Positions 44,576 through 64,000 of a DNA stretch of 64,000 nt are shown piece by piece (position 1 is the first letter of the stretch; every line of letters starts with the position of its first letter). Both the position numbers and the translations under genes were made by a program. The stretch is from Methylocella sp. (GTDB lineage Bacteria > Pseudomonadota > Alphaproteobacteria > Rhizobiales > Beijerinckiaceae). Under the pieces are notes generated by a model. That model was not told where the DNA came from. It saw only the letters and a list, made by a program, of their open reading frames with translations, and ran no database searches. The stretch is taken from contig JBBCGG010000001.1 of the NCBI GenBank assembly GCA_037200525.1, positions 4,828,501 to 4,892,500 on the forward strand. The letters are read 5' to 3'.

Positions 44576-44603
44576 GCGCCTCGTTTATCCTCGATCGCTG
44601 TAT

Positions 44604-44674
44604 TTACGGACTATTACGGACTTAAAAAAACACATGATATTTCAATACCATAGTTTGATTCGGTCTTTACGGAC
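44604..44674. repeat. Three direct TTACGGAC repeats near the integrase
   Basis: The octamer TTACGGAC occurs at 44604-44611, 44614-44621 and 44667-44674, all between mutY and the integrase start. Spacing of the first two is 10 bases start to start, one helical turn. Short direct repeats beside a tyrosine integrase are typical arm-type binding sites of a left attachment region. The core crossover site cannot be fixed without the other end. Confidence 0.55.
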
Positions 44675-44757
44675 CACCGCGAACGTATTAGAACTATATC
44701 TTACTAAACGGGGGTAGCCGAGGCCTAAAAGCGCCTACCCCCGAAGAAGCGGACGGA

Positions 44758-45969
44758 GTGGGCGCAGTGGAAAAACGATTGACCGTGGCCCGCGTCGCGG
44801 CGGTCTCGAAGAGCGGCAATTATCCTGATGGCGGCGGTTTGTATTTGCAAGCGACCGAAAGTCCAGACGGGAGAATCACAAAATCTTGGATTTTCCGCTT
44901 CAAGTCGCCGCTGACTCGAAAAGAACGGATGATGGGCCTCGGGTCGCTGGACCGCGTACCGCTGCCCGATGCGCGGAAGAAGCGCGACGCCGCGCGGGAT
45001 GAGCTTGAGGCTGGGCGCGATCCAATCGCCGAGAAAGATAAGGTAAGAGCGCAAGCGCGTGAGATCGTCGCCGAAGAGACAGCGCCGACTTTCGACGCCT
45101 GCGCGCTAGCCTACGTCAAGGCGAATAAGGCAGCTTGGAAAAGCACGAAGCACGCGGACCAGTGGACCGCCACGCTACGCCGGTATGCCTCGCCGGTTTT
45201 CGGATCGAAGCCGGTCAGCGAGGTGGACCACAATCTCGTTTGGCGAGTCGTTGAGCCGCTGTGGTCCGCGAAGCCAGTGACCGCCTCGCGGGTGCGCGGT
45301 AGGATAGAGACGGTGTTGAATTTCGCGAAGGTCAGGGGATACCGGACAGGCGAAAATCCGGCAGCTTGGAAGGGCAACCTCAGCAATGCCCTGCCCCGCG
45401 TATCGAAGATAAATAAGGTGAAGCATTTGGAGGCGATGCCCTACGAAGAGCTGCCTAAATTCTACAAATCGATAATGGGGGAAGATGGCTCGGTGTCCGC
45501 TGCCCTTCGGCTAACAATCCTCACGGCGGTTCGCACTAACGAAGTGAATGCGGCGAAATGGTCTGAGATCGATTTCGAGCAGGCTATTTGGACCATCCCT
45601 AGCGATCGAATGAAGATGGGGAAGGAACACCGGGTGCCACTCGCCGAAGAAGCCATAGCTGTACTTAATCTTATGAAGGCATCCCGAGTGAATGAGTTCG
45701 TGTTTCCGGGGAGGTTCGGAAAGCGAATTGGGAATGTCTCGATGCTGCAATATTTGCGCGGGCATGGCGTCGCTGACGCGACGGTCCACGGCTTCCGTTC
45801 GAGCTTTCGGGACTGGTGCGGAGAGGAAACGTCATTTCCACGCGAGATCGCCGAGGCCGCGCTGGCGCACGCGAGCGGCGACGCTACGGAGCGCGCCTAT
45901 AGACGGGGTGATGCTCTGGAGAAGCGGCGGGCGCTAATGGGCGAGTGGGCGGCGTATTTGGTCGGGTGA
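44758..45969 (+). CDS. P4-type tyrosine integrase
   Basis: A 403-residue site-specific recombinase. The N-terminal arm-binding domain (DUF4102 type; NYPDGGGLYLQATES) is followed by a core-binding helical domain and the catalytic domain. The first catalytic Arg is in LTAVRTNEVNAAKW, the His-x-x-Arg box in HGFRSSFRDW, and the Tyr nucleophile in ERAYRRGD near residue 382. The start is GTG (44758, or 44767). It lies 182 bases from the divergent mutY start and presumably integrates and excises the element. Confidence 0.93.
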   Translation: MGAVEKRLTVARVAAVSKSGNYPDGGGLYLQATESPDGRITKSWIFRFKSPLTRKERMMGLGSLDRVPLPDARKKRDAARDELEAGRDPIAEKDKVRAQAREIVAEETAPTFDACALAYVKANKAAWKSTKHADQWTATLRRYASPVFGSKPVSEVDHNLVWRVVEPLWSAKPVTASRVRGRIETVLNFAKVRGYRTGENPAAWKGNLSNALPRVSKINKVKHLEAMPYEELPKFYKSIMGEDGSVSAALRLTILTAVRTNEVNAAKWSEIDFEQAIWTIPSDRMKMGKEHRVPLAEEAIAVLNLMKASRVNEFVFPGRFGKRIGNVSMLQYLRGHGVADATVHGFRSSFRDWCGEETSFPREIAEAALAHASGDATERAYRRGDALEKRRALMGEWAAYLVG

Positions 45970-46813
45970 TTCGCGACCAGGGCGCATTATGGCCTCTAGA
46001 CGCTTGCCTCCCAGCTCGTCATGTAAGAGCGTTCGGATCGCAGACCCTTGTCCGCATCGCGAAGAAAAATCCGTCTTTCAGCTTCATTTTAATGAACTCA
46101 TTACATACTTTGTGGCTCGAGTATTTATCAACAAGAGGACCAAGTGAATCCGTCTTTTGAGAGGATAGGACGATATCTTCTGCACATTGAATAACGGCGT
46201 CATTGATACGGTCTACTCCGCTCGCCGCGGATAGTGTCGCGAAACGAACGTGTCCTTTTGGAGGTGCGCGAAAATCAGGTTCTTGATCGAGGCGTCCATT
46301 TCGACCGGTCTCGCAATAGAGGCAGAATTTCCGACTCACCGGTAAATATCTTGGAAGTCCAGGTTTTCCGCCACGCCAGGGCCCCTGATCATGGAAAGCA
46401 ACCGGATTATCGCTGGTCAAAAAGTCAGTATCGGTCTCGTTTCGCAACACGATCCAGTCTGAATCATAAAACATGCCCGCGTATTTCATGAGATTTTTCG
46501 TGTTCATAGCCCGCATATAGTCAGGCTCGGTTTCAATTTTCACAATCCCTTTTTCTAACGCGGCCAGAGAGTGCTTCAGTTTAAAATCCGGTTTGCCATG
46601 GGATGACTTTATCTCTTCGGTTGCGCGGAGATTAGCAAGCACAAAGCGGTTGTGATTGTCTACGGAAACTCTAATCCAAGCGGGAGTACAAACGAGGAGG
46701 TTTGCCCAGTATCCAGATATAATCATTTTTTCGTACGGCGATATTCTTCCTGCTTCTATTTCGCCGACCGCCCAATTCCAGTCAGGTTCGAATATTTTTC
46801 GATACTCGCCTAG

Positions 46814-47644
46814 GCTCAGGACCTATTAAATTTGCCTGAGATGTGATTCCTGGTCTCCGCATGGGGAGGCTGGGATGAGTGATTTGTTTTTGTTGGGCGA
46901 GCGGCAGATGGCGCGGCTTGCGCCGCATTTTCCTCTGTCGCATGGCGTTCCGCGGGTTGACGACCGTCGGGTGGTCAGCGGAATCGTCTATGTGATCCGC
47001 AACGGCCTGCAATGGAAAGATACGCCCAAGGATTACGGGCCGCACAAGACGCTTTACAATCGCTTCATCCGCTGGAGCCGGCTCGGCGTCTTCGACCGCA
47101 TATTCGCCGCGCTCGCTGGCGAAGGTCCAAAGCCCGAGCGCATCATGATCGACGCCACGCATCTGAAGGCGCATCGCACAGCGGCGAGCCTGCTCAAAAA
47201 GGGGCTCTTCCCCGCCGTATCGGGCGCACGAAAGGCGGGCTGAACTCGAAGCTCCACGCCGTCTGCGACGAAGCCGGAAAACCGATCATCCTGCTGCTTA
47301 ACGAAGGCCAGATGAGCGACCATAGGGGCGCGCGGCTTCTGGCCGATACGCTGCCGCCTGCCTCGGCGCTGATCGCCGACAGGGGCTACGACAGCAACTG
47401 GTTCCGCGCCGCGCTGAAGGCCAGGGGCGTCGAGCCCTGCATCCCGCCAACCAGAGGCCGCAAAGCGCCGCTCCACTATGACAGGACGCTTTATCGAACG
47501 CGCCACAGAATCGAGAACCTCTTCGTCAAGCTCAAGGACTGGCGGCGCATCGCAACCCGCTATGATCGATGCGCCCATACCTTCTTCTCCGCCATCTGCA
47601 TCGCCGCCGCCGTCCTCTTCTATCTCAATCAATGAGTCCTGAGC
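46814..47644 (+). mobile_element. IS5-family (IS427-like) insertion sequence
   Basis: An 831-bp element bounded by inverted ends: left GCTCAGGACCTATT, right reading inward GCTCAGGACTCATT (12 of 14 match). It is flanked by CTAG at 46810-46813 and 47645-47648, the target duplication. It carries a two-frame transposase. The insertion splits the DUF4238 gene. CTAG as target is usual for the IS427 group. It looks intact and recent, since both halves of the host frame are undamaged. Confidence 0.93.
46875..47635 (+). CDS. IS5-family DDE transposase, made by -1 frameshift
   Basis: The first frame (46875-47243) gives 122 residues with the N-terminal domain and the first catalytic Asp in MIDATHLKAH. 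The second frame, ending at 47635, continues GALPRRIGRTKGGLNSKLH, has the second Asp in LIADRGYDS and the Glu in RHRIENLFVKLKDW. The frames are joined by a -1 shift at CAAAAAGGGG, about 47200. This layout is usual for IS427-group elements. The product catalyses cut-and-paste movement of the IS. Confidence 0.88.
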
Positions 47645-47949
47645 CTAGAAGGTTGGGGTTGGATAAAAAATCTGGAACAATATCTCCGTTCCATTCCCTG
47701 CATATGTCTTTCGGCCTGCACGGAAAATATTTTCCGTCTGATTTTCTATAGGCATGCAACAATGTCTCGCCGGATCCGAGGAAATGCTCAAGATAAGTTT
47801 TGGCTACATAATGATCTTTTGCCATGAAAATTCGTCCAAAAAAATTGGGCATCGGGACGTTACAAACGTATATTCGCCGCATCCAACAGTCAATCCGTCC
47901 AGAGCGGCAGTTTTTCTATGCACATATTTTTTTAAATTGAAGATCAGTC

Positions 47950-48292: not shown

Positions 48293-48874
48293 ATGGCTAA
48301 AGAGCAATGGTACGATCGGCCGCCGTCTACCGACGAAGAACGCGCGGCAATGAACCACGATATCGATTGTCTCACGGCCGGGAATAAGCCCGCCGTGCTC
48401 GACGCCTCACAGTTAGACAAGATGCCGACAAGAGCTGCTGATTTTTTCGCTGCGACGGTTAGACCAACCGTAGATGAGTTTTTTGGCGACCCACGAAATG
48501 TTCGTCGGGGGCGTTTGGCTGCGATCGTCCTTTATCATATGGCTGATTATTGGGACCAGGAACACGATCCCACGGACAAATCATTGAGTAATTTGCAAAA
48601 ATCGCTGATAGGGAAATGTCCTGAATTCGGGATCATTAGAGATATCGCAGACGCCTCTAAACACGATCGTCTAACAAGGCCGTCTCAAATCCCGCGACAA
48701 CTATCCAATTCGGATCAAATCGAGAGAGCAAAAGGCTTTTTTGAAGCATCGTTTAACGAGGGGGCGTTTAATGAAGCCTCGATTGTTATGGTTACGCTGG
48801 ATGACAAGACCAAGAAGCCGTTAGCGGGCTATGTGCAGGCTGCCCTGTCGATGTGGGAGAGTATGCTGCTGTGA
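48293..48874 (+). CDS. Unknown cargo protein, possibly HEPN-like helical
   Basis: A 193-residue mainly helical protein with a good GGAG ribosome site. After a charged start (EQWYDRPPSTDEERAAM) it has helix-rich stretches such as LAAIVLYHMADYWDQEH, followed by RDIADASKHDRL. The RDIADASKH pattern recalls helical HEPN-like families of mobile elements, but the usual Rx4-6H catalytic motif is not clear, so I do not assign function. No toxin partner is recognised next to it. Confidence 0.5.
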   Translation: MAKEQWYDRPPSTDEERAAMNHDIDCLTAGNKPAVLDASQLDKMPTRAADFFAATVRPTVDEFFGDPRNVRRGRLAAIVLYHMADYWDQEHDPTDKSLSNLQKSLIGKCPEFGIIRDIADASKHDRLTRPSQIPRQLSNSDQIERAKGFFEASFNEGAFNEASIVMVTLDDKTKKPLAGYVQAALSMWESMLL

Positions 48875-49003
48875 AGCGAGCCGGGCGCTGTCGGCACGCC
48901 TGGGCTGCATTCTGATCGCCTATACCGCCACCCCTGTCCTGGCCTCTGATTCAGATCTATCATGTAACTGCTCCGGCCCGAGGGCTGTTGGGAAAGAGCC
49001 GCG

Positions 49004-49477
49004 ATGGCTACATCGTTCACCGTTCTCCAGGTTATTGTGGCGATCGTCTTTTCAGGGGTCGGCGCGTGGCTCGCTTGGCAGCAAGTACAAATCGCAAGAG
49101 TTAAGTTACAGCATGAACTTTATGACAAGCGATACCGCGTTTATGACGCCGCACGCGCGCTAACAGCCGATATTGTCGTTCACGCAAACGCATCTGATGA
49201 GGCGGTGCGGCAGTTCGTCATCGGAACCAGCGATGCCGTTTTTCTTTTCGACGACGATAAAATCACTCAGTATCTAGAGGAAATGAGGAAGCGGGCAGCG
49301 GCGCTGCAGTCCGTTCAAAAGGCATTTGATATCCTGGCTGTCGGAAGCGATCAAAAGGTCGCAAACGCCGATAGGTTTGCTGAACTGACGAGTTGGTTTG
49401 ATGAGCAGTTAAGCAAGGGCCTCCGAGATAGATTCAAGCCTTTCCTCCAATTCAATAAGCTCCGCTGGTGGTGGTGA
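49004..49477 (+). CDS. Small membrane-anchored protein with Trp-rich end
   Basis: A 157-residue protein with one N-terminal membrane helix (about residues 5-25, TVLQVIVAIVFSGVGAWLAW), then a cytoplasmic helical domain with LQHELYDKRYRVYDAARAL, a pattern seen in unassigned helical families. It ends in LRWWW. Ribosome site GGAAAGAG precedes the ATG. Function unknown; compare the protein at 51696, which has the same layout. Confidence 0.55.
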   Translation: MATSFTVLQVIVAIVFSGVGAWLAWQQVQIARVKLQHELYDKRYRVYDAARALTADIVVHANASDEAVRQFVIGTSDAVFLFDDDKITQYLEEMRKRAAALQSVQKAFDILAVGSDQKVANADRFAELTSWFDEQLSKGLRDRFKPFLQFNKLRWWW

Positions 49478-49834
49478 TAGTCGACTTGCAGGAGTGCGCA
49501 CGCAACGGCTCACCCCAGGACAATTTCCCCCAACAATCCCCAAAAAAGTGGCGGTTTCTGTGTAAAAGACCGTTGTATCGTCATATCTCATCGACAAACG
49601 ACAGCGATATCACTCACAAGTGAGGTTCGGTTTGCAGGTGCAAATTGAAAAAGGCGGTTCCGACCTAGCCCGTCGAAAACCGCCTTGTGCCTTAAGGTCC
49701 GTGAAGGAATTAGCTGCCTCGCGTGCGGACCAGTAGTTTGGATCGTTTTGTTTTATTTTCTTTGGTCAGCCCAGCGAAAGTAACTGACTGCAAATTTCCT
49801 GGCAAGCGAGGCGGCGCTAGTTAGGAAAATTGTG
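49478..49834. other. Non-coding stretch with a hairpin
   Basis: No gene seen. It contains the minus-strand terminator-like hairpin at 49646-49686 and an AT-rich segment (TTTGTTTTATTTTCTTTGG around 49748) that may carry a promoter for the HTH gene starting at 49835. Confidence 0.4.
49646..49686 (-). terminator. Intrinsic-type terminator, minus strand
   Basis: Stem AAGGCGGTT/AACCGCCTT (9 bp, perfect, loop about 18) followed on the minus strand by TTTTTC. It would stop leftward transcription, for example from the coiled-coil gene at 50133-50960. Only structure supports it. Confidence 0.5.
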
Positions 49835-50041
49835 ATGTGTAACTACGGAAACGATGAAGATAGTCGCCAGCTTGAGCTTTTTCCGCGCCCTAAAAAGCGC
49901 AGATCGCCTCCGGTGACGCCTGAATTAGGTGAACAAATTCGGGTGTTGTACGCGACTACAGAGCTAGCGCAGCATGAGATCGCGGCGCACTTCGGAATCA
50001 ATCAAGGCCGCGTTAGCGAAGCGGTGAACAAGAAGTTGTAA
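49835..50041 (+). CDS. Small helix-turn-helix protein
   Basis: A 68-residue protein with a basic linker (FPRPKKRRSPPVTP) and a C-terminal helix-turn-helix: LYATTELAQHEIAAHFGINQGRVSEAVN, resembling the homeodomain-like HTH of recombinase/transposase repressors. The upstream GTG three codons earlier is not needed. A perfect 8-bp hairpin (GGGGAGGC/GCCTCCCC) at 50054-50073 follows its stop. It may regulate genes of the element. Confidence 0.6.
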   Translation: MCNYGNDEDSRQLELFPRPKKRRSPPVTPELGEQIRVLYATTELAQHEIAAHFGINQGRVSEAVNKKL

Positions 50042-50053
50042 CGGTAATGGGGA

Positions 50054-50073
50054 GGGGAGGCGCTAGCCTCCCC
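50054..50073 (+). terminator. Hairpin after the HTH gene
   Basis: GGGGAGGC and GCCTCCCC form a perfect 8-bp stem with a 4-base loop, directly after the HTH stop codon. There is no T tract on the plus strand, so it may be a weak terminator or an mRNA-stabilising hairpin. Confidence 0.4.
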
Positions 50074-50132
50074 AAACCATGCCAAAGGGTTGAGCGCCGG
50101 TTTGGGCGCAATCCTCAGGCACATACGGCTGC

Positions 50133-50960
50133 CTATGCGAGGGCAGCTATGGGAGGGATCGAGACACCCTTCAACGCAGCCACGATAATGTCGCGAAGCT
50201 TGCCCTTAGCCTTATCAGGCTCCTTCGAAAGATCAGCCGCCTTCAGGTAGTCCGACACCTTCTTTTCAAATTCGGTGTTCCGGTAGCACTCGCCAAGAAA
50301 CTTTCGCGTTTCGGCGTGGAGGCTGGTCTCTGTCGAATCAGGAATGTATGGATCTTCTGGCGAGTCATCCACGTACACTGACATCGACACTAATGTACCA
50401 TCAGGATTGATGACCGTCTTGCTAGCGCTAGCAAGACGCTTTTGCGCTTCCCTATCACGTCGAGCAAGCTCGGCCTCTGATAGCGGTTTTTTGAACTTTG
50501 ATCGCTTTTCTTTCCAAATGAGCTGGAGCGATCGGCTATCGGTCCTTAATAAAACCTCGTGCGCAACCTCTGGCTCGCCCCCGAAACCGATCAAGGCGAC
50601 GCGGTCATGGCCATTGAACTTTAGCCCGGTGCCGTCCGCCCACTCGCCGAATTTAGCATTGCTTTTAAATTTCAGGCGAGCTTCGTAAAACGCCTTTGCT
50701 ATCTCTAGCGTGCCGTCCGCCCATTCGTGAATCCCGGCTTGCGATCGGTCGATGCCTTTTTTGATGCGCTCGACGATCGCGGCGAGCTCAGCCTTGTTTG
50801 CTTCCGCCGCCTTAGCATCCTCTTCCCGCGCGTTTGCTTCCTTGTCTGCTAGTAGCTTGGCCTTCGCTTTCGCCGCATCAGCAGCTATCTTACGTTTAGC
50901 GTCCGCCTTTTCCTTGGCTAGCTTGGCCTTGTCTTCAACGGACAATTTAAGTTTGGCCAT
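50133..50960 (-). CDS. Coiled-coil protein of the element, unknown
   Basis: A 275-residue protein. Residues 1-60 are an Ala/Lys/Glu-rich coiled coil (KAKLAKEKADAKRKIAAD). Then comes a distinct domain with IDRSQAGIHEWADGTLEIAKAF, and a repeat-like FGEWADGTGLKF. It resembles unassigned phage-associated proteins with a HEWADGT-type helix. It has a good AAAGGAAG ribosome site. It is transcribed left, opposite the flanking cargo genes. A 20-bp palindrome (TCTTGCTAGCGCTAGCAAGA) lies inside the coding sequence. Confidence 0.55.
   Translation of the reverse strand: MAKLKLSVEDKAKLAKEKADAKRKIAADAAKAKAKLLADKEANAREEDAKAAEANKAELAAIVERIKKGIDRSQAGIHEWADGTLEIAKAFYEARLKFKSNAKFGEWADGTGLKFNGHDRVALIGFGGEPEVAHEVLLRTDSRSLQLIWKEKRSKFKKPLSEAELARRDREAQKRLASASKTVINPDGTLVSMSVYVDDSPEDPYIPDSTETSLHAETRKFLGECYRNTEFEKKVSDYLKAADLSKEPDKAKGKLRDIIVAALKGVSIPPIAALA
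50414..50434. repeat. Palindrome, copy 1 of 2
   Basis: CCGTCTTGCTAGCGCTAGCAA contains the perfect 16-bp palindrome TTGCTAGCGCTAGCAA (50419-50434). The same 21 bases recur at 63503-63523. Here they are inside the coiled-coil gene. Confidence 0.7.
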
Positions 50961-51082
50961 TGGCGCTTCCTTTCATTTTCATTTGATAAAAGAGAATACG
51001 CCTCAAAACTTTGGTAATATTTCGATCACGGAAAGTTTACAAAAAGCGGCGCGATAGGCCGCACCCATGCGCGGAGATTACC

Positions 51083-51652
51083 ATGAGCCTTTTTGATGAT
51101 TTGAATGCTGCGTTTAAGACATGGCGCGATGCTTATTTCGAGGAGCGCCGGTCTGCGGCGAGTTTCTCGAGCAAATTTGCTAAGGGCCTCCAAACCTATA
51201 TCGGAGCACCGGATACCTTTCCGCGATGGTTCCAAGACCCAATACAACAGCGATATGTTAAGACAGCTGCATTGGTTGAAAAACAAGGTGGCCAATATGA
51301 GGCTGTAGAAAAAACAAATCCTTTCGAATTAGTTCAAAAAGAACAAGATGGATATTGGTCCTTCGCCATTCAGGTGGCGTTAGAAGTGGATGCAAATACA
51401 TATCCAAAACAGTACTTCGGTATACCTATCCATTTTATCATAGATGCTGAGTACGCAAGGATGAGAATAACTAGCAGGTCAGAAGGTGAATTTAATTTCC
51501 ATCTGACTGACGAAGCAAAGAACAGCGTAGTCTATGATTTTGTTGTCAAACTTTTGCTCGACATTTTCAAAGTAAATGCACCGGCGAAATTATTGAAAAA
51601 GTCGCCGTTCGGCTTCCTCGAATTTCCATTGCCTGATCCGTCCCGCTCTTGA
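51083..51652 (+). CDS. Unknown cargo protein
   Basis: A 189-residue protein (ATG at 51083 after a GGAG site). It has a helical N-terminal part (FDDLNAAFKTWRDAYFEE) and a beta-rich middle (WSFAIQVALEVDANTYPKQ, FGIPIHFIIDAEYARMRI), ending in a proline-rich tail. Base composition is AT-richer than the host genes, as expected for recent transfer. Family not recognised. Confidence 0.5.
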   Translation: MSLFDDLNAAFKTWRDAYFEERRSAASFSSKFAKGLQTYIGAPDTFPRWFQDPIQQRYVKTAALVEKQGGQYEAVEKTNPFELVQKEQDGYWSFAIQVALEVDANTYPKQYFGIPIHFIIDAEYARMRITSRSEGEFNFHLTDEAKNSVVYDFVVKLLLDIFKVNAPAKLLKKSPFGFLEFPLPDPSRS

Positions 51653-51695
51653 GTACGCCATGATCAGGAAACGCATTTCAAGCCAAGGTGGAATT

Positions 51696-52178
51696 ATGTT
51701 GGATGAATTCTCTAAGTACGCCGTTATTGCCCAAGCTATCGTTGCATCAATTGCTCTTCTTTTTATCCTTTTTCAAATCTGGTCTCAGCGTCACGAAAAT
51801 AGAAAATGGAAGACACTCGATATTTGCGCACAATACGAGTTCAATGAAAACGTAAATACTGCGGCGACAACCGTCCGAACGGCCTTTGCAAAGGAAATTC
51901 CAAATCCAGACGACTGCAAAAATGCGACGATCGTATTAAACTATTTAGACGGGATCGCAATCGGCATTCGGCAAGGGCTTTATATTGAGACTCTCGCTCG
52001 AGATCATCTAAAAGAGATCGTCAGTTTTTATGTTTCAAAGATTTTGAACGACAGCTTCTGCACTGACTTGCGTCTCGATAAAAGACATTTTTATCGCGTC
52101 ATAGAAATGGACAAAAAATGGTTAGCCAGCGAACCTTTTTATAGTTCCAAATGGTTTCGTTTCTGGAAGTGGTGGTGA
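51696..52178 (+). CDS. DUF4760-like membrane-anchored protein
   Basis: A 160-residue protein: an N-terminal membrane helix (YAVIAQAIVASIALLFILFQIW) then a cytoplasmic domain beginning KTLDICAQYEFNENVNTAA, with LNYLDGIAIGIRQGLY, a signature I associate with DUF4760. It ends WFRFWKWW. Its function is unknown. It starts about 43 bases after the stop of the preceding gene, so the two probably form one transcript. Confidence 0.6.
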   Translation: MLDEFSKYAVIAQAIVASIALLFILFQIWSQRHENRKWKTLDICAQYEFNENVNTAATTVRTAFAKEIPNPDDCKNATIVLNYLDGIAIGIRQGLYIETLARDHLKEIVSFYVSKILNDSFCTDLRLDKRHFYRVIEMDKKWLASEPFYSSKWFRFWKWW

Positions 52179-52383
52179 TCGCATGTTTTTCGCCCGCCCG
52201 GCGATGGGAGAGGACTGTGGTTTCGACGGATCGCGCTACGGTTGGGCTGGGCTAGCGCCCTCGCACGCCTAGCCCCCATTAAAATTGGGCCGAGAGCCTA
52301 TCCGCTGTACGGGCAACCGGACTCGACAACCTCCACCATTCCGCTATAGAACAAAACACGAACATAAGTTTGAGGAGGCGTAA

Positions 52384-52722
52384 GTGTCGAGGCGCGATCG
52401 GAAGATGAGTTACCCAAGCGGGCCGGACGCCGCTGAAGCGGTGCGCTCGCTACGGGAATGTTGGCACGCCGTTATTCGCGCGACCGGCGATCTAAAGCTC
52501 GACAGCCCTCTCGCGCAGGCTGCGAATGAGTTTGTGAGTTCACTCCATCGCCTCGGCTTCTTGTTTACGGGCGAACGCGATTATTTCCATGGCAGCGGCG
52601 CAGGATCGACGGAGAGCCAAAGGGAATATGAAGCGCAAAAACGGAAGCGAGAAGCTGGCGAGCTTTCGTGGATTCAGCCGGAAGTCCTGCCGCGCGAGCC
52701 GGACAAAGAAAAAGGCCGCTGA
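52384..52722 (+). CDS. Small unknown protein
   Basis: A 112-residue protein starting with GTG after a strong GAGGAGG site. A helical N-terminal half (AAEAVRSLRECWHAVIRATG) precedes FVSSLHRLGFLFTGERDYFHG and a charged tail. No family recognised. Its 3' end overlaps the minus-strand terminator hairpin at 52713-52740. Confidence 0.5.
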   Translation: MSRRDRKMSYPSGPDAAEAVRSLRECWHAVIRATGDLKLDSPLAQAANEFVSSLHRLGFLFTGERDYFHGSGAGSTESQREYEAQKRKREAGELSWIQPEVLPREPDKEKGR

Positions 52723-56025: not shown

Positions 56026-56034
56026 TGGATGCCT

Positions 56035-56265
56035 CTATGCCGGTACAAGCTTCACGAAGACACCCTGATAGGGGACGGCATCGCGTGGCCCGAGAAATCC
56101 GAGGGGTGAAAGTTTGGTATTTTTAGCCGCAGCGATCGCTTGCTCTCGCGTCGGATAGGTGCCAACTTTTTCGTTGTGCTCAGAATAATCGTTGATTGGT
56201 ACGTAAGGGGACTCAACAGGATAGATCGCCTCAGCTCTTTTTCTGATCCAGACTTCCCATTTCAT
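56035..56265 (-). CDS. Small unknown protein
   Basis: A 76-residue protein: MKWEVWIRKRAEAIYPV, then YPTREQAIAAAKNTK, a short alpha/beta fold of about DUF length. Ribosome site GGGGA. It lies between the S49 protease and the next small gene, in the same direction. Confidence 0.5.
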   Translation of the reverse strand: MKWEVWIRKRAEAIYPVESPYVPINDYSEHNEKVGTYPTREQAIAAAKNTKLSPLGFLGPRDAVPYQGVFVKLVPA

Positions 56266-56303: not shown

Positions 56304-57842
56304 TTACTTCGTGGGCGAGAACTCGTTTTTATGCCGCTGCGCGATCGCTTCGCCCGCCTGCGCCTGGGTGCGTTCGTCGGCGGTCAGAGTGTCGAATGTT
56401 TTGACGCGTGAGGAGGTGCCGCCGAAGGCGCTTTGGTTGACGTAAGATGCAACATCGATTTTGTTTCCTTCTTCGTCGCAAATCGCGTCGTCGTCATCGT
56501 CGCCTTCGGGGTCGCAATCTTCGTCGTCCGCTTTCGCTTTGGATGCGTCGTCATCCGCCTTTTTGTTCAAGTAGGCGGCTGAGTTGTAGTAGTCGAGGGA
56601 GGCGGGAAGGGGCTGGCCGCTGAGGAGGGCGGTGGCGATTGCCGCGCCGGCATTGTAGTCGGCATTGGTCTCTGTCCTTGGCGCTTTGCCGAGCAACCGG
56701 GCAGCTGCTTTTGCGCCGCGCTCTTCCGCGCTGAGCTTTTTTGCGGCTGGCTTAGCGACCGCAGTTACCTCGGTTGAAGGGGCTGCCTTAAGGGCATTTA
56801 CTGCGGCCTCCACACTTAGCTCTGTGTTGAAAGCGAGGTGCTGGGCGAGGGAAGCGCGGCCTTTTGCAGCGTCGCTCATCGTGATGGCCTTTACGCGCTG
56901 CTTAACAGCGGCGACGGTGGAGGCCTGCGCATCTTCCGCGCTGGCGGAGAGCTGCGAGCCCAAAGGCTTGGTGTTGGCGGTGTGGGGTGTATTAAAGACT
57001 GACATATATTCCTCCAACTCTCCGATTTCGTCGATGAGACCAAGGCTGATGGCTTCATCGCCCATGTATGTTGCTGCTTCAGTTGCTAGAACCTGATCGA
57101 GAGAAATCTTCCCGTCGCGCCCTTCTGCAACTTGACCCGCGAAAGCGAGGCGAAGTTCATCGACGCGGGCTTGAATGTCTGCCTTCGCGCTGTCCGATAG
57201 CGGCTCATATGGATTTCCATCGGCTTTTTTCTTGCCGGAGAAAATCATTGAGATTTTCAGGCCGAAGGATTTGAGGGCGGATGACATATCGCTGTGAGTT
57301 GATATGACGCCAATCGATCCAACTTCAGAGATTGGAGAGGCGATTATCTTATTGGCCTGCGCCGCTAACCAATAAGCGCCCGAACAGGCCATGCCGTTAA
57401 CGACAGCGGTCACTGGCTTCTGAGTTCGCACTCTTTGGATTACCGACGCCGTTGAATCGGTGCCGCTCGCGTAACCGCCAGGGCTATCAATGAGAAGGGC
57501 GATTTCTGTGACATTTGGATCGTCCGCTGCCCGTGAAATCTCGCTGCGCAAGCCTTCCTGAGAAGTCATGCCCCAAATGGAACCAAGGAAATCGCCGGAA
57601 GGGATGAGCATGCCGCTGATCGGGATGAGCGCAACGCCGTTCTCAATACGGTATGCGCCATACCGATCGCTGGACGGCTCGCCGCGCATCCGGTCGGCCT
57701 TTGCGGGCGTGAAAGTTTCGAAGGCTTTGGGCTCTTTCTGCCATTTTGCGAAGCTGGTTGCGAGCTTGTCAGCAAAAGACGTGTGGCACAAAAGCATTTC
57801 TGCCGAGATAGATGAAGTTGGTAATGCTGACTGCTCGTTCAT
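56304..57842 (-). CDS. Phage S49 capsid-type protease with scaffold-like tail
   Basis: A 512-residue S49 (SppA-like) serine peptidase. Residues 70-275 are the protease: LIDSPGGYASG, the nucleophile Ser154 in ACSGAYWLA, and one of the lysines of SGKKKADGNP (204-206) as general base. Residues 310-390 form an Ala-rich helical module, then an acidic stretch (DDEDCDPEGDDDDD) and a C-terminal helix. Phage proteases of this type, fused to a scaffold, mature the capsid. No capsid gene follows. Strong AAGGAG site. Confidence 0.88.
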   Translation of the reverse strand: MNEQSALPTSSISAEMLLCHTSFADKLATSFAKWQKEPKAFETFTPAKADRMRGEPSSDRYGAYRIENGVALIPISGMLIPSGDFLGSIWGMTSQEGLRSEISRAADDPNVTEIALLIDSPGGYASGTDSTASVIQRVRTQKPVTAVVNGMACSGAYWLAAQANKIIASPISEVGSIGVISTHSDMSSALKSFGLKISMIFSGKKKADGNPYEPLSDSAKADIQARVDELRLAFAGQVAEGRDGKISLDQVLATEAATYMGDEAISLGLIDEIGELEEYMSVFNTPHTANTKPLGSQLSASAEDAQASTVAAVKQRVKAITMSDAAKGRASLAQHLAFNTELSVEAAVNALKAAPSTEVTAVAKPAAKKLSAEERGAKAAARLLGKAPRTETNADYNAGAAIATALLSGQPLPASLDYYNSAAYLNKKADDDASKAKADDEDCDPEGDDDDDAICDEEGNKIDVASYVNQSAFGGTSSRVKTFDTLTADERTQAQAGEAIAQRHKNEFSPTK

Positions 57843-57851
57843 GTAGGCTCC

Positions 57852-58157
57852 TTATTTGCCCAGTAGCTTCTTGGCGCTGGCTGCGCCTTGCTGTTCTGGT
57901 GACAATTGATTTGGTCTCAAGCCGCCATCTGAACTGATCCTTGGCTTTTTATAGCTGGCCATTTCTTCGAAGAGCGTCGGTGCGCGCGGTTCAGCGGGCG
58001 CGGCCTTAATGGGGGCAGCGGCGAGCGTCGCAATCGCGTCGGCGGCAGACAGCTCGGTGTCGTATGCGAGAAATGACGCCAACTCTTCGCGGCCTTGGGC
58101 AGCGGTGCTCGTGATAATTTCCTTCATTCGATCTTTGGCGGCGGCTTGTTCGGTCAT
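57852..58157 (-). CDS. Stand-alone paralogue of the S49 scaffold tail
   Basis: A 101-residue protein that aligns with residues 313-386 of the neighbouring S49 protein: QGREELASFLAYDTELSAAD matches KGRASLAQHLAFNTELSVEA, and the ends SPEQQGAASAKKLLGK and SAEERGAKAAARLLGK correspond. It overlaps the upstream gene stop by ATGA and ends 9 bases before the S49 start. A separate scaffold unit is the simplest reading. Confidence 0.65.
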   Translation of the reverse strand: MTEQAAAKDRMKEIITSTAAQGREELASFLAYDTELSAADAIATLAAAPIKAAPAEPRAPTLFEEMASYKKPRISSDGGLRPNQLSPEQQGAASAKKLLGK

Positions 58158-58429
58158 TGCGGGTCTCCTTCGGTTTTTGGTGCGAGTCCGCGCCGTGCAG
58201 GCGAAACCACGATCGCGATAATCTCAGAGGCAGTCATGTTGGTGCTTCCAAGGAGCCTGACGGCTTCGCCATACTCGCCAAGGTCCACATGCCATTGCTC
58301 GGACACCCAGCTGAGAACTTCGCGCCAGCGGCACCGCTCCATGAAAACTGCGTTTTCAATTTCGAGCTGGAGGAGCGCGTCGTGATCCTCTGGAGTTTCG
58401 CGGGGGAGGAGGAACTGGGTCATGTTCAT
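58154..58429 (-). CDS. Small unknown phage protein
   Basis: A 91-residue protein (ATG at 58429) starting NMTQFLLPRETPEDHDALL. It has a CRWREVLSWVSEQWHVDLGEYGEAV helical segment and ends in MTASEIIAIVVSPARRG. Start and stop overlap its neighbours as ATGA on both sides, so translation is coupled. It may be a head or packaging protein; no family recognised. Confidence 0.55.
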   Translation of the reverse strand: MNMTQFLLPRETPEDHDALLQLEIENAVFMERCRWREVLSWVSEQWHVDLGEYGEAVRLLGSTNMTASEIIAIVVSPARRGLAPKTEGDPQ

Positions 58430-58851
58430 GCGAAGAGATCCTCCAAGTCGTCGCGTGCGGAGCCGAACCCGGCTTTGCGCAAGGTCTCGGGGTCCGGTGT
58501 GTGGATGAGAAGGTTTGAGTGTTCGGCTTCGCGCTGACCTTCGCGGATCGCATCGGCCCAAGTTTGTGTGTGACGCAGGAGGCGTGGGCCTTGACCTGAA
58601 AGCTTCGCGAAGCGAGCGCCGAAAGACGCGCCGCGAACGCGGGCTTGTTCCTGAGGCGGCAATGGCGGCGGAGGGGGTGGCGCGGCTGCTACGGCGGGCG
58701 CGGGCTGGCGTTTCGTGGTTTTGGTGGGCGCTGGTGAGGCCTCGATGGTCTTGGGCTTCCTTGAGCGTGGCTTGCGCTCTGGGTGCTTCGCTTGGATATC
58801 CAAAGCGAGTTTGGTTTTTTCGGCCAGGAGCTGCTTGAGGCCTTTTGTCAT
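58426..58851 (-). CDS. Proline-rich small phage protein
   Basis: A 141-residue protein: helical start (KGLKQLLAEKTKLALDIQAK), a low-complexity proline stretch (APPPPPPLPPQE), then a conserved-looking C-terminal part LRHTQTWADAIREGQREAEH. It starts by ATGA overlap with the HTH gene and ends by ATGA overlap with the next. No family recognised. Confidence 0.5.
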   Translation of the reverse strand: MTKGLKQLLAEKTKLALDIQAKHPERKPRSRKPKTIEASPAPTKTTKRQPAPAVAAAPPPPPPLPPQEQARVRGASFGARFAKLSGQGPRLLRHTQTWADAIREGQREAEHSNLLIHTPDPETLRKAGFGSARDDLEDLFA

Positions 58852-59225
58852 GGGGAGGCCTCCGCATGCTCTTCGGCGTCGGCGGGCGCGGGCGTCGGCT
58901 GGACAAGATCGACGCCATCCAAGATCCGCTTCATTTGCGCTTGGATTTCGAGATTTTTCATGTGACGGCGAGCTTCTTTGGCTTCCGCCTTCGTAATCCC
59001 TGCCCGTCGCCGATCTTCGCGCGTTGCGGTGGTGAGGCTGTCAAAATGCTTTTTCAAAGCTTCGCGCGTCGTCGTAAAAGTGCGCAGATCGCCGCCAGTC
59101 ATGGTGCCGGGGATTTCGCCTTTATTGATCATTTCGATGGTAAGCCGCGTGCTGAGGCCGATAACTTCAGCGATCAGTTTGGCTCCACGAAGCACACCTA
59201 AAGATGAGTTTTCCTGATTATTCAT
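58848..59225 (-). CDS. HTH protein, possibly small-terminase-like
   Basis: A 125-residue protein (ATG at 59225) with a winged-helix-type start (GAKLIAEVIGLSTRLTIEMINKGEIPG) as in excisionase or Nu1-like packaging proteins, then a charged coiled coil (RREDRRRAGITKAEAKEARRHMK). A small terminase would fit its place at the head of the late genes, but no large terminase follows. First gene of a run of overlapping reading frames. Confidence 0.5.
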   Translation of the reverse strand: MNNQENSSLGVLRGAKLIAEVIGLSTRLTIEMINKGEIPGTMTGGDLRTFTTTREALKKHFDSLTTATREDRRRAGITKAEAKEARRHMKNLEIQAQMKRILDGVDLVQPTPAPADAEEHAEASP

Positions 59226-59842
59226 CCGCAAACCCAATCTAGAGCTATTAGTGGTGGTTAGCGTAGGTTATGACCGATTAAATAACTCTATACTATTCCG
59301 ACGTCGGCCAAAACAGAATAATAGTGACGTTTCGCTCTAAATTAATAGTCAAATACGTAGCGGATCCAATTTTCATTTCATTGAAAACGTAGCGACAAAA
59401 AGCGGTAGCACGCCCCCGGTGTGTATATGTGACGGAAGTACCTTTTTGATTCTAGCTCGCTGGAGTTATCTCTAAGTATATCATGAGGTTAACGGCCCCC
59501 TCCTCTACAGATCGGGGATATCTCTACTGCTGGGGGATCGCCGACGCGTGGCGACGGACGGTCCAGGGGCGGATGGTCGTGGATAGGGAGGGGATGGAGA
59601 AGGATGGTCTATGGCCGCGCTCGGGCTGGGGAGAGCCCTGGGGAATTTGGGCGGCGGGCCAGCCAGAGGCCTAGCTAAGCTAACGCTCTCGCTGGGAGCT
59701 AAACCTAAGCATTGGGGGAGCGGGGAGAATTAAGGGGTATTTTCCCCTAGTTCCCTAGGGGTGTTACTATAAGGAGAAAGAAAGGGAAAAACAGGGTAAA
59801 TTCTCCCCGCTCCCCCGTTTCTCCCCTATTGCTACGCTTGCG
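59226..59842. other. Non-coding segment between the HTH and primase genes
   Basis: About 617 bases without a supported gene. The right half is purine-rich on the plus strand (GGATAGGGAGGGGATGGAG). It contains the perfect 18-bp inverted repeat at 59714-59816 and smaller palindromes. ACGTAGCG occurs twice (near 59354 and 59388). The region must hold the promoter for the late genes and may be a replication origin for the adjacent primase-helicase. Confidence 0.5.
59714..59816. repeat. Perfect 18-bp inverted repeat, candidate origin
   Basis: GGGGGAGCGGGGAGAATT at 59714-59731 is exactly mirrored by AATTCTCCCCGCTCCCCC at 59799-59816. The 67-base centre has its own perfect palindrome CCCCTAGTTCCCTAGGGG. 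TTCTCCCC recurs again at about 59819. There is no T tract in either direction, so a terminator is less likely than a cruciform, origin or regulatory RNA fold. It lies just after the primase-helicase stop. Confidence 0.65.
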
Positions 59843-61393
59843 CTAGAACGGACCAACATCATCATCCCCTCTTGGCCCTGCACCGGGCACCCGGCCACGC
59901 GCCGCTGCCGCCGCTCCATCCTCCCCAGCCACATCGGCAGCATAGTTCAATTTAATTCCCTTAAACACCGTCGAGCCGTGCGACTTGTAATCTTCGTATC
60001 CAGCTAACCGAAGTCGGGCAGCAAGATCATTTCGGGTCGTGTGATCAACGCCCTCATCATTTGCCCATTTTGAAAAGCTATCGAAAAGCGTTCCCAAAGA
60101 AAGTTTGGTAACAGTCTCGTCGCGCGAACAAAACAAACCGATCCAAAGCCCAACGCCATCCATATCTTTGCGATATTGCGCCGTCGCCTTGCTCACGATC
60201 TCCGGTGGCCTCAACCCGCCATTGGCGAGGTAATCCTTCAGGCCTTCAAGGCACCAATTCAAGATGCCGGGTAATTCAGGAACAAGCTTGTTCTCGCGAA
60301 AATCCTCATCCTTCTCGGCGTCGGAAATGGTCACAAGATAAGGCACATAGTGAATACGTCGCCAGATGCCAACATCCGTTCCTTTGATTTTCGGTTTATG
60401 GTTCGTGCGCAAAAACGGCTTATGCGTCGGCGTAAAATTGATTGGAGCTTCAAACAGCGCGCGGCCATAGAGCGTATCCTTACCAGCTAGATATTTGACG
60501 CGCTTCTCATTCAACTGGTCATTCTCGCTGGTCTCATTAATCCAAACAGCTCGCTTCCCTTTCACCGCAACGATTTCAGGGGTTGCACAATTTCGATCCT
60601 TCGCCGCAATAAGCAGGCCAGCATCCGCCGAATGGGCATAATCGCCGAGAATTTGATTTATGGTCTCCATTTCGGTGGTCTTACCGTTCGCGCCGCCGCC
60701 GTGCATTATGAAGAGGATTTCAACCATCTTGCCGGTTAGGGATATTCCGAAGAGCCGTCGCTTATAGGCAATCAGCTTATCATCACCATTGGAAATCTTA
60801 TGTTGGAAGGCCAGCCAATTGGGGCATTTTGCGTCGGGATCAAAAGACACCGAGCACCGCTTCGTGATGTAGTCTTCTCGGTTTCCGCCAGCTACAAAAT
60901 CGCCAGTCGCTAAATCGATCGTGCCGTTTTGAACGCCGAGCAACATCGGATTAGCATCAAGCGCGTCGGTCGATAAGATGACGTCGGAATCACTTCTCGC
61001 CAAATTGACCATCGCCGTGATCTGAAACGCGGTTTGGCATTTAAGCGCAAATTTCCGAAATGTTGTTCTCGCAGCTTCATCGGCGATCTCTTTTGCCTCA
61101 TCGAATAGCAACTCAACAGTCGCCTTTGCGCGGCGTACAATCTCGCCGTCTTCATCGCGCTTCCAATAAAGACCATCCCACACATACCAAGATTTAAATT
61201 GGGGAGCATATCGGATGTCAGCGCCGTGCCGCATCACTAATCGATGCGCATTACCTAGCTCCGTCAACTCTTCAGAAATAGCTATTTCAAAGTCAGTGTT
61301 CGCAGACTTTCTCTTCCCCTTTTTGAGCGTTATCTTAATAGTCGCTCTTCCGGTCTTTACTTTTCCCGTTTCCGCGTCTAAATTATAGTCCAC
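59843..61393 (-). CDS. P4/D5-type primase-helicase
   Basis: A 516-residue protein of the phage/plasmid primase-helicase group. The N-terminal D5 part (RHGADIRYAPQFKSWYVWDG) is followed by a superfamily-3 helicase: Walker A GGGANGKTT, Walker B-like GKRAVWINETSE, and sensor-like FKPTHK..FLRTNHKP motifs, with IWRRIHYVPY near the end. It unwinds the element's DNA at an origin. It ends in a Gly/Asp-rich tail. It follows the Toprim gene by 63 bases in the same direction. Confidence 0.9.
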   Translation of the reverse strand: MDYNLDAETGKVKTGRATIKITLKKGKRKSANTDFEIAISEELTELGNAHRLVMRHGADIRYAPQFKSWYVWDGLYWKRDEDGEIVRRAKATVELLFDEAKEIADEAARTTFRKFALKCQTAFQITAMVNLARSDSDVILSTDALDANPMLLGVQNGTIDLATGDFVAGGNREDYITKRCSVSFDPDAKCPNWLAFQHKISNGDDKLIAYKRRLFGISLTGKMVEILFIMHGGGANGKTTEMETINQILGDYAHSADAGLLIAAKDRNCATPEIVAVKGKRAVWINETSENDQLNEKRVKYLAGKDTLYGRALFEAPINFTPTHKPFLRTNHKPKIKGTDVGIWRRIHYVPYLVTISDAEKDEDFRENKLVPELPGILNWCLEGLKDYLANGGLRPPEIVSKATAQYRKDMDGVGLWIGLFCSRDETVTKLSLGTLFDSFSKWANDEGVDHTTRNDLAARLRLAGYEDYKSHGSTVFKGIKLNYAADVAGEDGAAAAARGRVPGAGPRGDDDVGPF

Positions 61394-61456: not shown

Positions 61457-62599
61457 TTATTTTTGTCGCGCCTGAATTTGATCGTTAAAATCTTTGTATC
61501 CCTTCTCAGGCAATATCATTTTGATTTTGATTCCTGCGCCTCGATATCGGTGTTGCACCTCTCTGTAGGCGCGCTCGCTGGCGCCGTTGTCGCGCTCGCC
61601 GAGCACGGTTAGCTCGCGAAGAAATGGGAGCGCAGGGAAGTCTCTAATTCCATACGTCGAGCCGGTCGCCCATACCGGACTAAGGCCCATCTGGATCGCG
61701 GAGAGACAGGTCTCAACACCTTCGCCGATTATCAACTTTCGAGCGGCGCGGACTTCAGCATCAGTGTGAAATTTAACAGCAGCGCCGGAAGCGATGCCGG
61801 GCATTTGCCGCAGCTTTTTCTGCTTCGACGCGCCGCCAGTTTTCACATCAACCATCATCGGCATCCATAGGCCTTCCTTGATGCGTTTGAAGCAAGTCCT
61901 ATGCACAGCGGTCAGTTCATCGGTTAAAATGTTCCGCATCGCGGCAATCATATAGTCGATCGTGATTTGTAGCTCGCGCTTCATGTTCGCTTCGGTCAGT
62001 TCGAAGTCGCCATAGCCGCGCGGCGAACCGGGACGACCATCCCACCCGCAATAGCCGCCATAGAGCACGCCTATCACGGTGTTGGCGAAGCGCTCGGAGC
62101 CAGTTATGGCGCGGCTCTCCAGATAGTTCTGGGCCAGGGTAAATGGGGCGCGAGGCCAATCAGTAATCTTGTGGAGGGCGCAAGCTTCGTCGATCGACAT
62201 GCCAGCCGGCCAATACCATTTGTGGAAATGCGACACTTCGTCGGTCGCCATGCGCCACAGGTATCTCGCATTGCTTATGCGCTCAGCTTCCGAGAAGATA
62301 TCGACGCGTGGCGGCTCTCCAGCTTCGACCTTCGCGGCCTCGATCAACTCATCAAAATACTCGCGGCAACTAGCCAGCGCTCCGCTGCCCAGTGCTGGGT
62401 CATCGTAATCAGCAGGGAAGATGCTATAGCCGGTAGCACTAAGCCGCACCTGGACTTCCAAGCTTTCTGGCCCAGGACCGAAGCAGCGAACAGAGCCGGT
62501 TTCAACACTCCCCTCAAGCGCGCGCGCGTACCATTCAAGCGCCTCAGGGTTAGCGGAGCCCCTGGCGTTGTGCGGCGCGTCTTGCTCGTCGCTGCTCAT
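61457..62599 (-). CDS. Toprim-domain primase-like protein
   Basis: A 380-residue protein. Residues 100-240 have a helical SF3-associated middle domain. The Toprim fold is in the C-terminal third: EGVETCLSAIQ with the catalytic Glu, then the ERDNGASE segment in place of the usual DxD, and KDFNDQI. Such proteins synthesise primers for phage or satellite DNA. It directly precedes the primase-helicase. Confidence 0.8.
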   Translation of the reverse strand: MSSDEQDAPHNARGSANPEALEWYARALEGSVETGSVRCFGPGPESLEVQVRLSATGYSIFPADYDDPALGSGALASCREYFDELIEAAKVEAGEPPRVDIFSEAERISNARYLWRMATDEVSHFHKWYWPAGMSIDEACALHKITDWPRAPFTLAQNYLESRAITGSERFANTVIGVLYGGYCGWDGRPGSPRGYGDFELTEANMKRELQITIDYMIAAMRNILTDELTAVHRTCFKRIKEGLWMPMMVDVKTGGASKQKKLRQMPGIASGAAVKFHTDAEVRAARKLIIGEGVETCLSAIQMGLSPVWATGSTYGIRDFPALPFLRELTVLGERDNGASERAYREVQHRYRGAGIKIKMILPEKGYKDFNDQIQARQK

Positions 62600-63103: not shown

Positions 63104-63343
63104 CTATCCAACCTTCAACTTGGCAGGAACTACAGTTGCCTTCTCCAGGCGCGCGATTACCTCAAGGATGCTAGATTTTCTCCAACGGTACTCGCGACCG
63201 ATCTTTATCGGCGTCGGGAACTCAAGATCAGCATAGTACGGATGACGACGGTAGCGCCAAAAAGTCGTCTCAGATCGGCAACCCAGCATGATCATCGCGT
63301 CGGAAGTGCTAATCCAAATCTCATCATCTTTCAGTGTAGGCAT
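63104..63343 (-). CDS. AlpA-like HTH regulator
   Basis: A 79-residue DNA-binding protein of the AlpA/MerR-like excisionase group: WISTSDAMIMLGCRSETTFWRYRR as helix-turn-helix, then the wing FPTPIKIGREYRWRKSSILEVI. AlpA-type proteins regulate integrase and excision in P4-like elements. The ATG follows AAAGGAG. It is the first gene of the leftward block. Confidence 0.85.
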   Translation of the reverse strand: MPTLKDDEIWISTSDAMIMLGCRSETTFWRYRRHPYYADLEFPTPIKIGREYRWRKSSILEVIARLEKATVVPAKLKVG

Positions 63344-63502
63344 CGTATGGTCTCCTTTAATAGCCTTCGCGGAGCCTATAACGAAAGAATAAATGACGTA
63401 TACACCTAAACAGCGCCTCGATTTAATTATTAGTTTTGGTCTTTTTCCGAAAAAACGAAACACTTAAGCTAAGCCTTATTGTTGCTCAGCCTCGGGCACC
63501 TA

Positions 63503-63523
63503 GCCGTCTTGCTAGCGCTAGCA
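63503..63523. repeat. Palindrome, copy 2 of 2
   Basis: Identical over 21 bases to 50414-50434, with the perfect palindrome TTGCTAGCGCTAGCAA at 63508-63523. Its place in the divergent control region makes it a candidate operator. Confidence 0.7.
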
Positions 63524-63545
63524 ACGCGGCCCAGCGTCAGCCCAA

Positions 63546-63580
63546 CAAAAAGCCCAGCGCGGGGATCGAGAGCGCTGGGC
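63546..63580 (-). terminator. Intrinsic terminator, minus strand
   Basis: GCCCAGCGC/GCGCTGGGC (9 bp, perfect, 11-base loop) followed on the minus strand by TTTTTGTTGGG. It would stop leftward transcription coming from beyond the window before it enters the AlpA operon. Confidence 0.65.
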
Positions 63581-63671
63581 AGGATCTCTCAGTAAAATTC
63601 GAGGGCCTTAACGCCGCTCGCAGCGCTCCTGCAATCCGTGGTACGCTCAGCGGAAAGCAGGAGACTCGTTA

Positions 63672-63962
63672 ATGGCCAAATTTTACGTCGTTTGTATCAT
63701 GTCGCCGGAAGAAGGCGGACGGTATACGGTATTTGAAGAAAACCCTCTAAATGCCAAATCCTACGCAGACAACGCCTTATCGAAGGGCGCTGACTCGCCA
63801 GTGAATATCTATTCAGTTGAAGCAAGCGACGTCCGAGCGGCCCATGAGGCAGTAAAAGCGGACAAAGGCTCTCTCTATCTTTCTCTTTCGCTGAAGGCGA
63901 CGCCTGAACAAATCGAGGCCGCGAAAGAAATACAAATGATAGACGATCTCCTTGGGTTTTGA
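63672..63962 (+). CDS. Small unknown protein
   Basis: A 96-residue protein: beta-rich start (KFYVVCIMSPEEGGRYTVF), helical middle (NAKSYADNALSKGAD), helical end (TPEQIEAAKEIQMIDDLLGF). A GGAG site precedes the ATG. No family. First rightward gene after the control region. Confidence 0.5.
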   Translation: MAKFYVVCIMSPEEGGRYTVFEENPLNAKSYADNALSKGADSPVNIYSVEASDVRAAHEAVKADKGSLYLSLSLKATPEQIEAAKEIQMIDDLLGF

Positions 63963-64000
63963 ATCGATCCCATCACCGGAAGCTGCTTTTAGAATGCCCA

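Follow-up and report, generated by a model that had tools for sequence, protein, structure and literature searches.

We have analysed a 64,000-nucleotide stretch of the genome of Methylocella sp. (assembly GCA_037200525.1, contig JBBCGG010000001.1, positions 4,828,501 to 4,892,500; G000:C1:4828501-4892500 in our coordinates), hereafter called the window, in the right-hand part of which an original prediction, made from the letters alone, had seen a possible phage satellite. This part belongs to one integrated mobile element of ~21.3 kb that occupies the gap between mutY and a DUF721 gene, and that is neither a complete phage nor, by the features tested, an ordinary phage-inducible chromosomal island (PICI), capsid-forming PICI (cfPICI) or P4-like element.

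Boundaries and replication genes of the element

The host genome is a single contig of 5.24 Mb. The left flank of the element is formed by mutY (43493-44575), and to its right, where ~39.5 kb were read and open reading frames (ORFs) were viewed at 64-79 kb and ~88-103 kb, ordinary chromosome is found from ~66.1 kb, with DUF721 at 66624, DsbA at 67194 and Suf genes from 68 kb (gene names on this flank that lack a Pfam or PHROG match are our own reading of the ORFs). Since the genome is a single contig and the chromosome resumes at about 66 kb, genes missing from the element are not located past 64 kb, an alternative that had been raised with the original prediction and that the rightward reading rules out. 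From mutY to DUF721 the distance is 22 kb. A mutY match was obtained in 37 of the 40 genomes of the window's family (its own genome counted), and in 26 of the 29 relatives' loci read the site is empty, DUF721 adjoining mutY at a spacing of 28-718 bp (median 81.5); no DUF721 was seen near mutY in the remaining three.

A candidate core of the left attachment site (attL), AAACGGGGGTAGC, lies at 44706-44718 on the plus strand, and its second copy, the candidate attR, at 65964-65976, outside the window. This 13-mer is the sole common word of at least 11 bases between 44401-44850 and 63401-66150, and it is absent from the 29 relatives' loci when up to one mismatch is allowed. The repeat suggests that the element measures 21,271 bp (44706-65976), and an integrase gene lies between its two copies, as in satellites. 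The exact right end is uncertain because a glyoxalase-like gene (our own reading; 66078-66554) between the candidate attR and DUF721, which has an element-like GC content at third codon positions (GC3) of 0.64 and is matched nowhere in the relatives' loci, may be part of the insertion. The GC content of the element is 0.532 compared with 0.593 and 0.605 in its flanks, and GC3 ranges from 0.53 to 0.68 in 11 element genes and from 0.69 to 0.80 in 10 host genes, which suggests a fairly recent arrival. A search against Rfam gave no match.

The element possesses replication and regulation genes of its own, a general feature of satellites. The tyrosine integrase, of the Arm-DNA-bind_3 type (44758-45969, plus strand), has three Pfam domains over the cut-off (PF13356, PF22022 and PF00589) and matches phrog_1 at 2e-44. 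At the other end, on the minus strand, lie a D5/SF3 helicase (59843-61393; PF08706 1.2e-33, phrog_1156 4e-104) and a Toprim primase-like protein (61457-62599; PF13362 2.9e-11, phrog_510 9.5e-11). The AlpA-like regulator of the original prediction (63104-63463, minus strand) is a weak AlpA/excisionase-like helix-turn-helix (HTH) gene (phrog_66 8.5e-4; HTH_17 0.006, below the cut-off), and a clearer HTH_17/excisionase gene lies just past the window at ~65299-65550 (PF12728 2.2e-9, phrog_66 1.7e-8).

Late genes present and late genes missing

The late genes are likewise encoded on the minus strand. Central among them is an S49 head-maturation protease with a C-terminal scaffold part (56304-57842; PF01343 1.6e-34, phrog_53 1e-93), in which S154 and K206, invariant columns in a 16-member alignment, are the serine-lysine pair expected of the S49 type. 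Directly upstream, the scaffold part occurs a second time as a stand-alone gene (57852-58157, 101 residues; phrog_17040 6e-9, no Pfam family, 94% hhalign probability to the S49 profile), which aligns to protease residues 311-386 with 38% identity over 97 positions and whose homology starts at about its own ATG. It is preceded by a 91-residue gene (58154-58429; no Pfam or PHROG family), like the scaffold copy newly recognised beside the earlier gene list, by a gene for a 141-residue proline-rich protein (58426-58851; no PHROG, Pfam 0.049 and thus below the cut-off), and by a 129-residue gene (58848-59237) in the position of the small terminase subunit (TerS). The latter had been taken for a Nu1-like HTH protein, an identity that is not supported: it has no Pfam or PHROG family at an expectation value (E) of 0.1, the TerS profile gives E 0.82 and hhalign a probability of 5%, and a single-sequence structure model is unusable (mean predicted local distance difference test score 52). 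From 59237 down to 57852 these four genes are consecutive, with pairwise ATGA overlaps that give the 91-residue gene one with each neighbour, and an AAGGAG motif precedes the start of the protease. The overlaps, the scaffold homology from the copy's own start and the motif are unlike a recent deletion scar.

Downstream of the protease follow two small genes of 88 and 76 residues (55759-56265; no Pfam or PHROG family) and then, at 55529-55575, a strong GC-rich hairpin with a T run that resembles a terminator and separates the protease operon from the next late gene. Promoter and terminator scans returned numbers at the level of shuffled sequence (14 vs 13.4 and 27 vs 24.8), and the hairpin is absent from the list of the simple terminator scan; hence we use only the hairpin folded separately (55495-55600, minus strand; -46 kcal/mol, z -4.36, two other stretches giving -2.7 and -2.9). 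The next gene encodes a gpD-type tail/baseplate hub (54377-55501; phrog_52 3.1e-40, no Pfam family over the cut-off), the family profile of which matches chain 6u5h_C of pyocin R2 at 3.4e-38; it lies less than 1 kb from the protease. A NusG paralogue and putative antiterminator (53786-54328; PF02357 2.4e-8, phrog_6386 2.5e-6) completes the set; as a marker of the element family NusG was discarded, its matches in 22 other genomes of 297 being weak and scattered. The integrase, Toprim, D5, protease-scaffold, gpD and NusG genes, all of which the original prediction had named correctly, are unbroken.

Profiles for terminase, portal, decoration, capsid, sheath, tube, tape measure, gpU, gpX and baseplate proteins were built from the proteins of Aurantimonas phage AmM-1 and their relatives. 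When all six frames from 44.4 to 66.7 kb were searched unfiltered, no remnant of these genes was found: the best match of a first pass (E up to 1) was at chance level (0.013, with an uncharacterised AmM-1 protein, on the strand opposite to the integrase gene), and a repeat with iterated profiles and a second type of terminase, portal and capsid gave nothing at E 0.01. (As a terminase probe, phrog_2 was set aside as nonspecific, matching in 11 of 14 control genomes.) This agrees with the predicted lack of large terminase, portal, capsid and tail tube, and the element ends at ~66 kb without any such gene just past the window. It is highly improbable that the element is nevertheless a complete phage, with packaging and capsid genes too diverged for recognition or placed elsewhere in the genome. 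Eight small genes (129, 141, 91, 88, 76, 97, 170 and 157 residues) have no family over the cut-off and might be invoked in its favour; but apart from the integrase, Toprim, D5, protease and gpD genes no ORF exceeds 275 residues, below the size of a large terminase or portal, and alignment of the family-less genes to the profiles of the absent ones by hhalign reached at most 15% probability. The same search bears on a defective prophage, that is, a temperate myophage-type phage which lost its terminase-portal and capsid-to-tail blocks by clean deletions and of which the remaining genes are leftovers. Pseudogenes or fragments of lost late genes, as expected of a decayed prophage, were not seen in any of the six frames, with which clean deletions are still compatible, and the ~257-bp gap before gpD could be a deletion joint.

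Similar elements in Hyphomicrobiales and relatives among phages

An S49 protease without a portal gene upstream is rare. In public genomes, a portal gene is located no more than 4 kb upstream in 74 of the best 80 of 158 S49 loci, two start too close to the locus edge and four (L253, L262, L267 and L303) are without one; the corresponding numbers are 71, seven and two for 80 loci of a first viral set, and 69, four and one for the 74 newly fetched of 80 loci of a second. Three of the four portal-less loci, L253, L262 and L267, are Hyphomicrobiales loci with an integrase. The loci were picked for the absence of a portal, and the absence of a capsid gene in L262 and L267 was not part of the choice; the right side of L253 and L303 is too short to judge the capsid. 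L303 (a 6.5-kb contig), L374 (which has a capsid gene) and L514 (unclear) are not used as support.

In Bradyrhizobium sp. Ghvi (L267), the element measures 14,932 bp, is framed by perfect 50-bp repeats at tRNA-Pro and comprises an integrase, an HTH_17 gene, a primase/helicase-like gene, the S49 gene and a gene for a 690-residue protein that is weakly tape-measure-like and has no Pfam or PHROG match. In Bradyrhizobium sp. Ec3.3 (L262), 24.5 kb between perfect 42-bp repeats at tRNA-Ser hold an integrase, a primase-like gene (phrog_19930 3e-23; best match phrog_29234, function unknown), the S49 gene, a tape measure (phrog_28 7e-17), a Mu gp45-like protein (PF06890 1.4e-10) and a hub (phrog_177 1.5e-86) with distant likeness to gpD (profile 7e-4); an IMG/VR provirus (L310) with 100% identical proteins is the same element and was counted once. 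In neither of the two did the profiles for terminase, portal, capsid, sheath and tube give a match at E 0.01. The third element, in a metagenome-assembled genome (MAG) of Afipia (L253), consists of an integrase, D5, TerS (phrog_57 8e-18), a 112-residue gene and the S49 gene, after which the contig ends. These elements resemble that of the window in joining an integrase, a replication gene and an S49 protease without a match to large terminase (TerL), portal or capsid, and in the gpD-like hub of L262; they differ in integration sites and replication genes, in having a tape measure, either as well as the hub or in its place, and in their proteases, which are 37-43% identical to that of the window. 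Since elements of like composition occur elsewhere in the order, the combination of genes that had seemed unfamiliar in the original prediction is not unique.

A locus of the window's own family (L175, 3651-18359) contains an integrase, D5, TerS (phrog_57 2e-23) and a tape measure (phrog_34270 4e-71), with no TerL or portal match. Two further loci, L171 (5094-12048) and L180 (7634-13825), have an integrase-like gene, D5 and an HK97-type capsid gene, the former also an S78 protease, and show no terminase or portal by our own profiles.

In a tree of 227 S49 segments, the proteases of L253 and L262 (66% identical) form a sister pair with local support 0.994, and the nearest portal-bearing protease, L317, joins them with support 0.843. 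Over 399 codons the two sisters differ by 0.33 nonsynonymous (dN) and 1.76 synonymous (dS) substitutions per site, so that, assuming a single loss of the portal before they diverged, selection has maintained the protease in the absence of a portal. The nearest relative of the L267 protease, L315, bears a portal. As signs of candidate helpers, lambda-type portal genes (PF05136) are present in the genomes of L262 (one), L267 (two) and L303 (one) and were not found in the L253 MAG.

The order-wide scan covered 397 genomes, none of the window's genus, and records very close to the window may be missing from the collections scanned. Relatives of gpD occur in 54 of these genomes (its own included), the best being 35-36% identical outside its own genome, and phage-type relatives of the protease reach ~45-47%. 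The best relatives' loci read are prophages or phage contigs, several of which end at contig ends, with the order TerL-portal-protease-decoration-capsid followed by sheath-tube-tape measure-U-X-D. AmM-1 and other S49-type temperate phages likewise have the protease before gpD, and gpD is 33-35% identical to that of AmM-1; the head, packaging and tail sets of these phages are absent from the element, and the AmM-1 protease has no tblastn match to it at E 1. The window protease groups with those of L471 and L472 (local support 0.85). Locus L472 (14-13750), a viral contig with D5, an HTH gene, TerL, portal, S49 and capsid, is a model of the window element's ancestor. Upstream of gpD, gpX is present in 43 of 44 viral gpD loci; the sole locus with gpD straight after the tape measure is L192 (7883-10988), where no gpU or gpX was found.

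The closest match to the window gpD, a relic of 57 codons (79% identical; dN 0.13, dS 1.47), is located in the window's own genome. Two such relics, at G000:C1:228851-229018 and 263462-263629 in a duplicated stretch rich in insertion sequences (ISs), are 76-79% identical to the window gpD at the protein level; a 79% DNA match at 208-288 kb, considered as a helper prophage, turned out to be this IS-rich chromosome with its relic. Single-protein viral scans with the protease and D5 gave no confirmed relative. As a marker of satellites D5 was rejected, since its clade mixes loci with and without TerL: with two TerL types modelled, 17 of the 27 loci with a D5 match have TerL and ten do not, two of these ten on a short or edge stretch. 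A 6-kb mini-island of the same genome (G000:C1 ~1508646-1514613; L166 18646-20000 and L167 1-4613) carries D5, HTH and integrase genes, with no structural genes seen; this D5 and the one in the Afipia element share 52% identity.

A satellite or a defective prophage

Comparison with known satellites places the element beside, and outside, the described types. P4 has a tyrosine integrase, an HTH/AlpA-like gene and a D5-type helicase as well as Psu, Delta and Sid; the element shares the first three, but its primase is a separate Toprim protein, the protease and gpD are added, and Pfam scans of 20 element proteins detected no Psu, Sid or Delta family. As in PICIs, among them the Staphylococcus aureus pathogenicity islands (SaPIs), an integrase, HTH regulators and an own primase/helicase lie between direct repeats without a portal or large terminase, and a small scaffold-like gene mimics a phage scaffold, as does CpmB, which like Rcm or Ccm serves these islands as a capsid redirector. 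In PICIs TerS redirects the helper terminase; here no TerS is recognised, and on its 21 kb the element has the full S49 protease-scaffold as well as a tail hub. With cfPICIs, which also have portal and terminase, the element shares some head-assembly genes of its own, but it has no capsid, portal or terminase match. In PMC11389934 cfPICIs are described as satellites producing their own capsids, and a PICI, as defined for StCI in PMC13376191, comprises 7-20 kb without genes for viral structural proteins, from which the element departs in its 21.3 kb, gpD hub and head protease. A prohead protease by itself is not out of place in a satellite, since PMC12324425 lists terminases, portals and prohead proteases among the features typical of tailed phages or of known satellites. 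The literature searched, at abstract level and with few subscription papers, contained no satellite with an S49 protease and a tail hub.

In our judgement the most likely reading, at about even chances, is a phage satellite, derived from a myophage-type prophage, that would bring its own scaffold/protease and tail hub into helper particles. After induction such an element would excise and replicate by its own genes, with the terminase, portal, capsid and tail tube coming from a helper phage. In PMC12409344 CpmB is described as outcompeting the scaffold of 80alpha, and by analogy the scaffold copy, and with it the protease-scaffold, may replace the helper scaffold in helper procapsids, favouring particles suited to the element; the element's own gpD hub could be fitted into helper tails, and the NusG paralogue might let transcription pass the terminator-like hairpin ahead of gpD.

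Several observations weigh against a satellite. The order of the protease and gpD is that of phages with full gene sets, and this collinearity is the main argument for a prophage derived by deletion: D5, the TerS position, protease and gpD follow one another as in full prophages and AmM-1, minus the missing blocks, and in four genomes (G058, G119, G150 and G208) a single contig carries relatives of both protease and gpD at a distance of 15-22 kb. The closest proteases, L471 and L472 (46 and 44% identity), are on contigs with terminase, portal and capsid, and the window protease falls outside the L253/L262 clade, for which dS is, moreover, near saturation and two independent losses of the portal would weaken the argument from selection. 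No packaging gene is identified, because the TerS-like gene is unsupported, and the tape-measure profile missed the PHROG-recognised tape measure of L262, so that absence by profiles is not absolute. No sister or close relative of the element was found and no helper is known; a search of the window's genome for PF05136, the only portal family sought there, gave no match and hence no evident resident helper of the lambda-portal type, although helpers need not be resident. To our knowledge, a lone tail hub is without precedent among known satellites, and one cargo gene has been broken by an IS. The satellite reading of the original prediction thus gains from the lack of terminase, portal and capsid genes beyond the window and loses by the unsupported packaging gene, the collinearity and the missing helper, and we regard a defective prophage as nearly as likely, at somewhat below even chances. 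Against mere leftovers speak, in turn, the unbroken state of every core gene with no fragment of a lost one, the overlapping operon with its stand-alone scaffold, the still foreign composition, and the portal-less, repeat-bounded elements of similar kind elsewhere. The two may also be as much stages of one path as rivals, given the remark in PMC11389934 that defective prophages could be proto-hitchers.

The interior of the element carries cargo. A DUF4238 gene (46019-47882, minus strand; PF14022 3.3e-13 for 46019-46726, the piece at 47625-47882 being assigned to it by our own reading only) is the one split by the IS, whose DDE_Tnp_1 transposase lies at ~46.8-47.65 kb (PF01609 2e-13); a copy of this IS, 93% identical, is found elsewhere in the genome at ~G000:233990-234830. 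Plus-strand cargo genes at 48293-52722, with a single minus-strand ORF among them (50133-50960), include a DUF4760 gene (51660-52178; PF15956 6.6e-13), and a 170-residue protein without Pfam or PHROG family is encoded at 52765-53277 on the minus strand. Such cargo might point to a domesticated anti-phage element, in which the scaffold copy, protease and hub would act mainly as dominant-negative parts that spoil the assembly of infecting phages and shield the host, transfer being secondary or absent. Assembly-interfering proteins of prophages and PICIs have been published (PMC10884400 and PMC11364771), and one of these cargo proteins weakly matches a defence model (0.0043); but none of the 10 proteins scanned with PADLOC has a convincing match, and the intact replication and integration modules would be needless for a pure defence island. 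We consider this origin improbable, and all readings other than a satellite or a defective prophage together account for only a small part of the probability.

If the element is a satellite, it may not stand alone. It is possible, albeit on balance doubtful, that it represents an undescribed, recurrent family of Hyphomicrobiales satellites which take over helper particles at both ends, at the head by scaffold/protease (sometimes TerS) and at the tail by hub or tape measure, while the helper gives portal, capsid, sheath, tube and large terminase; the parts brought along would then be those that set particle dimensions and the tail tip. Even if the element is a defective prophage, it would still have to be explained why S49 protease genes and hub or tape-measure genes have survived repeatedly where portal or capsid genes are lacking. 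Should it prove to be a satellite, it would point to phage parasitism in Hyphomicrobiales of an unusual mode, relying on an enzyme-scaffold and a tail hub and not just on a small capsid switch, and it would offer a testable case of satellites arising from prophages, in which the genes that direct assembly were kept and the bulk genes dropped.

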